From: Prosthecobacter sp.
GTDB lineage: Bacteria > Verrucomicrobiota > Verrucomicrobiia > Verrucomicrobiales > Verrucomicrobiaceae
DNA: 44,010 nt
Direction of reading: 5' to 3'
NCBI RefSeq assembly: GCF_029946185.1
Contig: NZ_JAQSEA010000294.1
Location: 59,554-103,563, forward strand
Shown here: positions 10,972 through 14,394 of the stretch, in pieces
How the letters are laid out: every line of letters begins with the position of its first letter
Numbering within the stretch: the first letter of the stretch is position 1
Made by a program: the position numbers and the translations under genes
Notes under the pieces: model-generated
Database searches by the model: none
The model's input: only the letters and a program-made list of their open reading frames with translations
Told to the model about the DNA's origin: nothing

Positions 10972-11321
10972 GGGGGCGTACTGGTTTCGACGGGTAGCCT
11001 TAGTTCGGAGCTGCATGCCGAGGATGATTCGTTGGCCTCGTTAAACACCGGATCAAAAAACATAAATGCAAACTCTAACGAGCTAGCACTCGCAGCTTAA
11101 GCCCTGCGACATCCTTCAGGCAATGTCTGGTAGCCTGAACGATGCCACTACCAGGCTGGTTTGTTGATCGGGCGACCGGGTCACAAACGAGATACAACAG
11201 GACGCTGGGTGAAGAGTAGGCCGTCTCAAGCCGCCTCCCACCGAGACCAAACATGAGACTGAGCATGGAGACGCTACGGATGATGGTTATTCGGACAGGG
11301 GTTCAACTCCCCTCGCCTCCA
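10972..11321 (+). ncRNA. ssrA: tmRNA
   Basis: Transfer-messenger RNA rescues stalled ribosomes and tags the nascent chain. The 5' end GGGGGCGTACTGGTTTCGACGG is diagnostic and pairs with CGCCTCC (11314-11320). The T-arm AGGGGTTCAACTCCCCT lies just before the 3' end. The tag frame starts at GCA (11068) and encodes ANSNELALAA followed by TAA (11098-11100). The discriminator is A11321 and the next bases are CTT, so the 3' CCA is not encoded and must be added. The 350-nt length is normal. There is no duplicated 3' end of the gene in the next few kb, so no tmRNA-type integration site can be shown. Confidence 0.97.
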
Positions 11322-11645
11322 CTTCTTTATTAACGGGTTAAATCACTGATAATGAAGGGGTGGAGTGGGTTTTAAGGAATGGTGTCAAAAGGCTGAAAAT
11401 GGCTCTTTATGGCCTTTGCTGGCTCTGTTTGATGTTTAAAAATGGGTGAATTAAGGTCGCCAAACTGCCGCTGAATAGATCCAATATGGTGGACTAGATC
11501 GATGAGGAAGGCAGATCCGTGCCCCAGCGTGCATGAAGGACGGGGCAGTGGGGGCATGCAAGGCCAAGGCGCGGTCGACGGAACAAGCAAAGGCCGAAAA
11601 AGCAAGGTGGGCAAAATGGAGAGAAGAACGGGAGAGCAAATCTGA
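11322..11645. other. Gap between ssrA and the Abi-alpha-like gene
   Basis: This gap holds no supported gene. Several short frames on the minus strand lack family features. No T-tract hairpin is obvious after ssrA. Composition becomes more AT-rich than in the flanking genes. Confidence 0.4.
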
Positions 11646-12524
11646 TTAATAGTGTTCCCTGCCAAATCCAACTTCGCGAGCTCTGTGGATGATCTCCGCA
11701 CCAAGCCATGTCGGTTTGAGAACACGGATAGTGCAGTCGTTTCTCATCCAATATACCAGCAAAGTGCCCCAGTATAATGCGGTCGTAACCCATGTGAAAG
11801 GCTTCACAAATGCAATACCCGGAGAGGATGCCATGGTTATATTGATTTCAGGAAGCATGATACTCGCTGCGAGACTTGCAGTGAGAAGCGCAATCCCCAT
11901 TACGAAAAATAAAGGGTATTGTCGGCCAACAACTCCGCTGGCAAGATTTTTCTCCAAGAGCCATTTTTCAGATAAGCGGTCGCGAGGTGCATTTCTGGCT
12001 GGTCGGAAACGGTCATCTTCAATCGAAAGTAGTTCCTTTAACTCGACAGATTTCATACCTCGAAGAGTTTCAATGACGAGATCGTCGACGTCTTCATTAT
12101 TTAAAAGGTCAGCAAGTATGCGTTGCCAGATGGGTGCCGATTCCTCATCGGGGTCCACTTCTCGTGCAGCTTCAGTCCATTTTTCGATGGCTTTTATAGC
12201 CTTCACACTGGGTTCCTCGGGTTCTACGGGATGATCTTGGGCCTGCTCTGGCGGGGAGATCTTTTTAGTGCGTTTCCTTGTCTTTCTTTTGGGACGCGTA
12301 ACCGCCATTTTCTGGGCCTCATCAATATGATGATGTAGGTTTGCTCTCTTTTTTTCTTCGATCCACTCTTTGACTTGGATTCCCAACTCGTTTCCAATCA
12401 CTTTGGCTGCTGGGTTCAAAAGGAGTCCCATGAATGCTGCTCCGCCTTTCAAGGCGCTTTTACCCACTGCTAGGGCCGCTGTTGTTCCTACTACTACCGC
12501 AGCCGTTGTTGGTACATCACTCAT
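11646..12524 (-). CDS. Abi-alpha/DUF4393-like protein with two C-terminal membrane helices
   Basis: A 292-residue protein. The N-terminus is hydrophobic and Ala/Gly-rich (7-37), followed by LGIQVKEWIEEKKRANLHHHIDEAQKMA (48-74), which resembles the start of DUF4393/Abi-alpha abortive infection proteins. A basic stretch RPKRKTRKRTKK (78-88) leads into an acidic Pro linker. Residues 127-168 (DEESAPIWQRILADLLNN ... IETLRGMKSVELKELLSI) fit the second conserved block, where family members read as Trp-x-x-Leu-Leu-Ala followed by a Leu-rich helix. Two transmembrane helices follow at about 203-224 and 236-259. GC content in sampled lines is about 42-48%, below the roughly 60% of neighbours, which suggests transfer. 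It lies alone downstream of ssrA, convergent with it, a common island insertion place. A phage-defence role is inference; I cannot run a profile search. Confidence 0.6.
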   Translation of the reverse strand: MSDVPTTAAVVVGTTAALAVGKSALKGGAAFMGLLLNPAAKVIGNELGIQVKEWIEEKKRANLHHHIDEAQKMAVTRPKRKTRKRTKKISPPEQAQDHPVEPEEPSVKAIKAIEKWTEAAREVDPDEESAPIWQRILADLLNNEDVDDLVIETLRGMKSVELKELLSIEDDRFRPARNAPRDRLSEKWLLEKNLASGVVGRQYPLFFVMGIALLTASLAASIMLPEINITMASSPGIAFVKPFTWVTTALYWGTLLVYWMRNDCTIRVLKPTWLGAEIIHRAREVGFGREHY

Positions 12525-12609
12525 TCATCAAACAAGGAGCACCCATAAACGAGGTCAACTGCGAATTCTGAGCGCCATGCCTTCGGTGGCATGAGTCTTG
12601 AGCCACACC

Positions 12610-13872
12610 TCAATGAATCGACACCACCACGCCCGCTCTCACATGCGTGGCCAGGCGGGCGATGTCCCAGTTCGCCAGGCGCACGCAGCCGTGGCTGGCG
12701 CTGCGGCCGATGGTGTCGGGATCGCTCGTGCCATGCAGGCCGATGCCGGGCTTGTTCAGCGCAACCCAGATCACTCCCACGGGATCGTTGGGGCCGGGCG
12801 CGAGCAGATAAGTTTCATCGCCGCGCTCGCCGGTCTTCAGGAAAGACAGGTCATAGCGAAAGTCAGGCAGGCGGGCGATTCCCTTTACCTTCCACTCGCC
12901 CAAGGGGGACACCGTCTGCGCTGAGCCGATGGTCACGGGATAAGCGGCGACGAGTTTTTCGTTCTCAAACAAACGCAGCATGTTGTCCTTCGTGTCCACC
13001 TTGATGGCGATTTGGTCAGCCGTCAGCAGGCCTTCCTTGGGAGCCGGTTTCTCTTCGGCAGCCTCGGCTTCCTTCGTGGTCTTGGCGTCCTTGGCCTTAT
13101 GGGTGACTTTGCCCTTCGCTTCGGTGCTCTTCTTGCCAGCCTCGTCCTTCGGCTTCTGCTGGCCCTTTTCTTTCTTGTGGGCCGCCGCCGTGGCTGCTTC
13201 CTTCGCGGCGATTAGATCCAGCAGCGGCAGCGTTTTCACGCCGCCTATTTCAAAAGGTTCCACATTCGGCACCTTCAGCGTGTCCCCGGCTTTGAGGGTG
13301 TCCAGCTTGCCCGGGTTCAGCTGCTTGAGGTAATCGACGTCCACGTGGAATTTCTCGCCCACCGCCTCCGTCAAGTTCGCATACGGCAGCCATTTCAGCT
13401 TGGCCATTTCCGGTACTTCCTTCGGCAGCTTGCCGGTGGCTTTGACGTCGGCCTCCGTCACCACATAGTCGATGAAGACGTCCTTTACGCTGGTCAGGTC
13501 CATGTCGGAGATATCCGGCAGGGGCATGGTTTTCTCGGGCTGGCCTTCCACCTTCACAGGAGCGGGTGCAGCAGGCAGGGGAGGGAGGCTGTGAGCCTCC
13601 CGATACAAGCCCAACGCCTTCTCTGAAAAACCGCCGAAACGTCCGTCGATCTTCCCCGGCCCGAAGTTTGCGCGGTCGAGAAACACCTGCAGCCGCGTCG
13701 CTGCCTCATGATCGGCGGGCATGGAGGGGGGGGCTTTTTCGCCTTCAGCGGTGGCAGCGGGTTGGTCCGCAGCCTTCGCCGCTTTTTTGTCAGCAGCCGC
13801 AGAGGATAGAGAAAGCCCGCAAAGCAGGCTGAAGGTGAAGAGAAGGGGCAAGCGAAGCACTGGGGGATTCAT
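12610..13872 (-). CDS. L,D-transpeptidase (YkuD domain) with LysM-like region
   Basis: A secreted protein of 420 residues acting on peptidoglycan in the periplasm, forming 3-3 cross-links or anchoring proteins. The signal peptide is MNPPVLRLPLLFTFSLLCGLSLSSAAA. A peptidoglycan-binding-like segment follows (RLQVFLDRANFGPGKIDGRFG). Next come a LysM-like segment (VDVDYLKQLNPG ... LKAGDTLKVPN), a Lys/Ala/Glu-rich linker of about 60 residues and the YkuD domain. The catalytic motif HGT...GRSASHGCVR is complete with C396. The long open frame extends another 129 codons upstream, but this part is Arg-rich and would bury the signal peptide, so the ATG at 13872 is chosen. Confidence 0.92.
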   Translation of the reverse strand: MNPPVLRLPLLFTFSLLCGLSLSSAAADKKAAKAADQPAATAEGEKAPPSMPADHEAATRLQVFLDRANFGPGKIDGRFGGFSEKALGLYREAHSLPPLPAAPAPVKVEGQPEKTMPLPDISDMDLTSVKDVFIDYVVTEADVKATGKLPKEVPEMAKLKWLPYANLTEAVGEKFHVDVDYLKQLNPGKLDTLKAGDTLKVPNVEPFEIGGVKTLPLLDLIAAKEAATAAAHKKEKGQQKPKDEAGKKSTEAKGKVTHKAKDAKTTKEAEAAEEKPAPKEGLLTADQIAIKVDTKDNMLRLFENEKLVAAYPVTIGSAQTVSPLGEWKVKGIARLPDFRYDLSFLKTGERGDETYLLAPGPNDPVGVIWVALNKPGIGLHGTSDPDTIGRSASHGCVRLANWDIARLATHVRAGVVVSIH

Positions 13873-14394
13873 ACCCTGACTTCGCCCGTGCCGCGACAAA
13901 CGGCTGTGCGCGATTCCGCAAGCGTATGCGAGGACGGCCTTGGCGGCGTGGATTTCGTGTCCTTTTTTTTCAAAACCACCGAGCCGCGATGCCCCTATAT
14001 GGAGTGCGGTCACAGGGCTGCGAATATGAACCGCTGCGTGCGGCGCGTTCCGCCAAGCCGCAATCCGCCGGCAAACCCACACGGCAGCGGTCCTCGCCAA
14101 GGTCAGCATCGTCAGCCTGAGGTTGCTCCCGCGCTCTTCAGAGCGCCGCCTTGGGCGGAAAGGGGGATGATCGTGCCTGACCCAGGGCTTTGCTGCGCTG
14201 CGCCTTGGGCTGAATCCTGCGGGCCTGCGGCTCACGGCTGGCACCTTGTCGGAGGGCATGCCTCCGCAGGAGGTTGGCCGGATGGCACGGCGCCAGCGTG
14301 ATTCGAGGCCACGCAGCCTGTGAAAATATCTGCGTTATTGACGCGGCCATTCCTTGCGCCTGCTCGTTAATCCAGCCATGCATCCCGCTAACAC
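13873..14394. other. Intergenic region between divergent genes, no gene seen
   Basis: This 522-bp gap separates the L,D-transpeptidase gene from the flavoprotein gene. It contains a T-tract near 13962-13969 and GC-rich stretches. One small hairpin, CCTCC-GCA-GGAGG, lies at 14261-14273. Frames in it are Arg/Pro-rich shadows. It should contain both promoters, but no match is clear enough to list. Confidence 0.4.

Follow-up and report, generated by a model that had tools for sequence, protein, structure and literature searches.

Our results suggest that the gene at positions 11646-12524 of a 44,010-nucleotide stretch of Prosthecobacter sp. DNA (contig NZ_JAQSEA010000294.1; hereafter the window) encodes a horizontally acquired anti-phage protein of the Abi-alpha type, produced from a single gene and probably located in the inner membrane; to an anti-phage protein of the Abi-alpha type we give a probability of roughly 0.58. 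Both relatives known for it were met in arrays of integron-like cassettes, so that the gene is probably a one-gene phage defence. The features on which the argument draws are the following, in window coordinates.

10972-11322, plus strand: ssrA (tmRNA), the convergent neighbour, an integration point in the genus.
11329-12607 (ends approximate), no strand: insert of foreign DNA, about 1.28 kb long and low in GC3, separating ssrA from the YkuD gene and delimited by congener comparison.
11646-12524, minus strand: Abi-alpha-like gene of 292 aa (an ORF), read as core, membrane hairpin and conserved tail; homologous to L002:1405-2214 and L004:11998-12732.
11688-11735, minus strand: conserved tail TIRVLKPTWLGAEIIH, residues 264-279, resembling in the alignments the T-x-F-G motif at the end of Abi-alpha proteins.
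11745-11810, minus strand: second hydrophobic segment, residues 239-260, weak here and strong in the relatives by hydropathy.
11838-11912, minus strand: first hydrophobic segment, residues 205-229, with a best 19-residue window of 2.23.
12018-12215, minus strand: core matching PF14337, EKWTEAAREVDPDEESAPIWQRILADLL..., residues 104-169 (hhalign residues 120-178 and 30-168).
12261-12296, minus strand: Lys/Arg cluster, residues 77-88, in a linker missing from the relatives (alignment A2).
12327-12413, minus strand: block around IGNELGIQVKEWIEEKKRANLHHH, residues 38-66, common to both relatives (alignment A2).
12610-14259, minus strand: gene with a YkuD (L,D-transpeptidase) domain across the insert (PF03734, E 9.6e-21; start codon not refined).

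The 292-residue product described by the first-pass annotation corresponds to an ORF with exactly these ends, and both sequence blocks quoted there are found in the protein. A spurious ORF was considered and ruled out: the frame is real, since two relatives, one from a Verrucomicrobia MAG and one from Vibrio, align across it. The plus strand across 11646-12524 is interrupted by stops. Lying on the minus strand, the gene is therefore convergent with the plus-strand ssrA, on whose other side is cysS (a PF01406 match), and 85 bp separate it from the end of the same-strand upstream YkuD gene. Its composition departs from that of its surroundings, with a GC content of 0.479 and a GC3 of 0.44 against ranges of 0.573-0.621 and 0.71-0.84 over nine of the window's genes, in agreement with the lower GC first noted. 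Near the window edge, at 1-280, a 93-bp unit is repeated three times in tandem within an open frame (10-489).

The gene is acquired DNA, as had been proposed, and arrived recently in this genome, because the protein was found in just one of the 68 family genomes searched, its own, and because the site is nearly empty in a congener. Similarity to the congeners G021 (L056) and G038 (L054) ends after CACTTCTTT and returns at or just before CTCAATGAATC. From the tail of ssrA to the stop of the YkuD gene there are 81 bp in G021 versus 1288 bp here, and G038 has about 1.2 kb of different DNA at the same place. The DNA of the insert gave the same picture as the protein, occurring in one of 67 family genomes searched, again its own. 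Searches with the 292-aa protein returned its own genome only from the class sample (384 genomes), and two matches beyond its own genome, one genuine and one dropped, from the phylum sample (387 genomes). Twenty congener stretches downstream of ssrA, taken from 45 genomes with an ssrA match and including eight that are shorter than 10 kb owing to a contig end, contain the YkuD gene in two cases and the 292-aa gene in none. A core gene, present at this locus in all relatives, is ruled out by these counts. In the G021 stretch, about 11 kb lie between the YkuD gene and a Trp_halogenase-like FAD gene that are near neighbours in the window; this interval is a second variable spot beside the one between ssrA and the YkuD gene.

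ssrA was considered from the start a frequent point of integration, and in this genus it is one. An ssrA match is present in 45 of the 47 genus genomes, and extra copies of the ssrA 3' end lie away from ssrA in nine of the 47 (G025, G027, G032, G034, G047, G048, G052, G053 and G055), the displaced tail being the sole match in G034 and G052. In G025 (L062), two ssrA 3' ends enclose an 8.2-kb island downstream of ssrA with a Phage_integrase gene at L062:11503-12675 (PF00589, E 1.4e-18). In the window no second ssrA 3' end was found at up to three mismatches, the whole genome gave a single ssrA match, and no integrase ORF was seen in the insert; an intact ssrA island, from which both would be expected, is thus unsupported. 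Since the insert has no second ssrA end, its arrival through an ssrA-targeting element is proposed only as possible. The missing end would also suit a decaying or non-functional gene, the remnant of a larger ssrA island stripped of its ends, as would a non-coding stretch of approximately 320 bp that follows the gene, the flanks devoid of an intact attC pair, and the 85 bp before the gene, in which there is no promoter-like site (such sites being overall at chance level). The frame, however, is open over its full length and has kept the residues that are conserved in core and tail, and we regard such a remnant as very improbable.

What are the relatives of this protein, and where are they found? 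The first, of 269 aa, was detected in G381 when the phylum sample was searched with the 292-aa protein (E 2e-11), and BLASTP aligns the two over residues 26-169 with a single-comparison E-value of 3e-17. Its contig is taken to be JAJFLO010000281.1, from a Verrucomicrobia MAG, and a search for further relatives among 197 genomes of the G381 class returned G381 alone. The second, of 244 aa, is encoded by plasmid pVeu-CECT8426 of Vibrio europaeus and was reached from the MAG relative (E 2e-18, 93% covered). It shares 21.8% identity with the 292-aa protein over residues 35-280 (BLASTP E 1.3e-8, again a single-comparison E-value), and the alignment spans the hydrophobic segments and reaches into the tail. 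With the 292-aa protein as query, no relative was found directly in genome contigs and plasmids, and none was found in viral contigs and phage records. A match in G111 (L003; E 7.5e-4, residues 194-254, in a 1085-aa frame) was dropped as a relative because it covered the hydrophobic part alone.

Both relatives are in a cassette-like setting. On its plasmid, the Vibrio gene forms a one-gene unit flanked by copies of a repeat; this repeat occurs up to seven times in 4 kb and looks like the Vibrio attC repeat. A KwaB-like gene (PF16162, E 2.4e-20) lies 1.6 kb from it, Hhe about 3.5 kb and a type I restriction-modification system 3.6 kb, all inside a 24.7-kb stretch of the plasmid in which there is no integrase annotation. 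The contig of the MAG relative (L005:1-8443, 8.4 kb) consists of small ORFs with intervening repeats about 90-120 nt long. A RadC-like JAB gene directly precedes the relative, and the contig looks like an integron cassette array. When the flanks were examined for a gene followed by an attC with RYYYAAC and GTTRRRY ends, the strict pair was found in one of the four flanks of the two relatives, namely 3' of the MAG gene, where a 70-bp element carries the attC end motifs exactly; the flanks of the Vibrio gene are repeat copies, each short of one strict end. The Vibrio relative, a single gene between attC-like repeats near defence genes, can thus be likened by its setting to the defence genes carried in Vibrio integron cassettes, which Darracq, Getz, Kieffer and colleagues (2025) have reportedly studied. 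The window copy differs from them: its flanks have no attC end pair on either strand, and no integron integrase in its genome passes the family cut-off. The best match there reaches 77 of 265 bits, and matches below the threshold are present in all 14 control genomes as well. An intact integron cassette in the window is therefore unsupported.

Integron cassettes are a known reservoir of defence genes (PMC12409362, PMC12444791), with at least 16 of 179 cassettes of V. cholerae described as defence (PMC12409362), and the setting of the relatives agrees with Vibrio integrons storing such genes. Many integron cassettes have non-defence roles, which counts against the defence reading. Mobile cargo of another kind, such as half of a toxin-antitoxin pair, an immunity protein, or a membrane protein involved in stress or signalling, would be in keeping with PMC12409362, which gives the majority of cassettes as being without known function, with the scarcity of Pfam matches among the cassettes adjoining the Vibrio and MAG genes, most of which have none, and with the PADLOC defence models, none of which significantly matched the 292-aa protein or its two relatives. 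The profile relation to Abi-alpha set out below speaks against such cargo, as does the insert itself, which carries one long ORF without a partner gene, and we find it doubtful.

The protein and its two relatives very probably belong to the Abi-alpha superfamily, judging from profile-profile comparison. An alignment of the window, MAG and Vibrio proteins (A2) was compared with a second alignment, A5, of 14 PF14337 members taken from phages, plasmids and the phylum (10 of 11 regions fetched from the 20 phage and 6 plasmid matches listed, and four others; L070, an unannotated Abi-alpha match, was omitted). hhalign aligned them over residues 120-178 with a score of 46.3 (Prob 86.8, E 4.3e-6), while 200 column shuffles reached at most 24.2, the reversed profile 16.1, and the best of 46 unrelated proteins, compared with A5 as single sequences, 21.3. 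The score was 43.6 without the window protein, 41.2 without the MAG protein and 34.1 without the Vibrio protein. An earlier set of four PF14337 members gave 38.6 with A2 over residues 30-168, and restricting the comparison to two members, L008 and L009, left no match (Prob 0.2). The 292-aa protein alone obtained 23.9 (Prob 4) with A5, barely over the best unrelated protein, and -0.3 bits with the HMM of A5 in HMMER; because of these weak scores, its link to Abi-alpha rests on its relatives.

The individual sequences stay below the curated models. Searched alone at E 10, the 292-aa protein matched no Pfam family, PF14337 included, and no PADLOC family; PHROGs returned one row (0.12), NCBIfam one row (0.084, far under its cut-off) and the PDB sequences two (E 1.2 and 1.3). 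The PF14337 model had no match at E 10 in the genome of the window, and likewise none in the control genomes. The MAG relative alone matched PF14337 with E 6.8e-4 and 20.1 bits, the Vibrio relative matched no Pfam family at E 1, and all three proteins miss the gathering cut-off of 29 bits for PF14337. The DUF4393/Abi-alpha-like core read in the first-pass annotation thus stands for the three-protein family, by HMM-HMM comparison, and barely for the single sequence. On these comparisons we classify the protein as a superfamily-level relative and not as a strict PF14337 member. Profile searches of the PDB sequences returned nothing for A2 and seven rows for A5 (E 0.5-0.99), among which PDB 3H35, named in the Abi-alpha paper (PMC6356687), did not figure.

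With Abi-alpha (PF14337, formerly DUF4393; PADLOC candidate PDC-S47) the protein shares a middle block, made of an acidic turn, a WQ/LLA-like helix and a next helix ending 'S/P.EA..LL', as well as a C-terminal T-x-x-G motif, a single gene of 210-300 aa and a mobile setting. It differs in falling under every curated cut-off, in having relatives in cassette arrays and not in prophages, and in the two hydrophobic segments between its core and C-terminal motif. In another genome of the phylum Verrucomicrobiota (L009:1372-3331), a PF14337 member is next to genes matching the PADLOC AbiLi and AbiLii models, in what is likely a small defence cluster.

In each of the three proteins, two hydrophobic segments separate the core from a conserved tail with the pattern T-W-[LI]-G. 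The two C-terminal transmembrane helices first described are recognisable in these segments (about residues 205-229 and 239-260), but they are not terminal, being followed by a tail of about 30 residues, and the second is weak here, with a best 19-residue window of 1.03 against 2.39 and 1.79 in the relatives. The basic cluster assigned to the C-terminus is actually in the linker at residues 77-88, a gap in both relatives. A 19-residue window of at least 1.6 was found in none of the 14 Abi-alpha proteins (maximum 1.41), an absence that is a property of the 14 members compared and no formal family criterion; a membrane form would be unusual among them, as was anticipated. Once the hairpin columns were removed, the C-terminal part still aligned with 18 columns at the end of the profile for Abi-alpha (23.5, Prob 32.8; 200 shuffles at most 17.3), matching the T-x-F-G-x-x-F motif with loss of the phenylalanines (TWLGAEI). 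From these alignments, we read the protein as having a membrane hairpin inserted in a variable loop ahead of the last Abi-alpha motif. The C-terminal part may be a winged helix. Against the weight of this C-terminal match, it spans 18 columns and T-x-x-G is frequent in winged helices. For the Abi-alpha helix that precedes the variable loop (N-L-x-R-L-G-L), the relatives have by eye L-x-x-L...N-L, scored by HMMER at -1.0 bits in L004 and lying outside the hhalign match. Structure predictions made from two-sequence alignments had pLDDT values of 44.6 and 45.9 and were unusable.

How could such a protein act? According to PMC6356687, Abi-alpha from an Enterococcus prophage stops phage Idefix while leaving phage adsorption unreduced, and the infected cells die, lysis coming about 10 minutes early; its discoverers weighed a holin or a membrane-potential effect to account for the lysis. 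The same paper presents AbiZ of Lactococcus, a single-gene Abi that hastens lysis and is thought to act at the membrane with a holin, as having no sequence similarity to Abi-alpha. The gene described here is likewise single, and AbiZ is likened to it by description. We lean towards an anti-phage role for the 292-aa protein, against which it counts that no defence gene is recognisable beside it in the window, and more tentatively we suggest membrane failure upon infection as the mechanism. The helical core and the tail would stay cytoplasmic, serving as sensor and regulator, until an infection signal released the hairpin, or the assembled protein; the membrane would then be depolarised or permeabilised, and the cell would die or lyse ahead of phage assembly, as in the premature lysis caused by the Enterococcus Abi-alpha. 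The possession of its own membrane hairpin would fit an arrangement in which sensing by the core is coupled to failure of the membrane. A two-helix membrane anchor, a single gene and the mobile setting of the relatives could also belong to superinfection exclusion or an entry block, in which a membrane protein halts the injection of incoming phage DNA and the cell survives, and prophage-borne proteins of such a type are mentioned in PMC6356687. The conserved core, however, which looks cytoplasmic, resembles Abi-alpha, which spares adsorption and lets cells die, and no prophage gene was seen in the window insert; exclusion therefore seems improbable to us.

If the Abi-alpha-type reading is extended to the whole family, one could speculate that the Abi-alpha superfamily includes a membrane-embedded lineage whose C-terminal domain, winged-helix-like, has gained a transmembrane hairpin within its variable loop. 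The hairpin would couple cytoplasmic phage sensing directly to a membrane pore, and the lineage would have spread between phyla as integron cassettes and then to other hotspots such as ssrA; we consider this broader scheme unlikely in its entirety. A literature search with the names Abi-alpha family, PF14337 and PDC-S47 returned nothing, a result that cannot show the membrane form to be unpublished. With a relative that brings a membrane hairpin of its own, the idea that Abi-alpha causes early lysis through the membrane becomes directly testable. Moreover, a defence family can hide under curated profile cut-offs, the only relatives found here being in cassette arrays.
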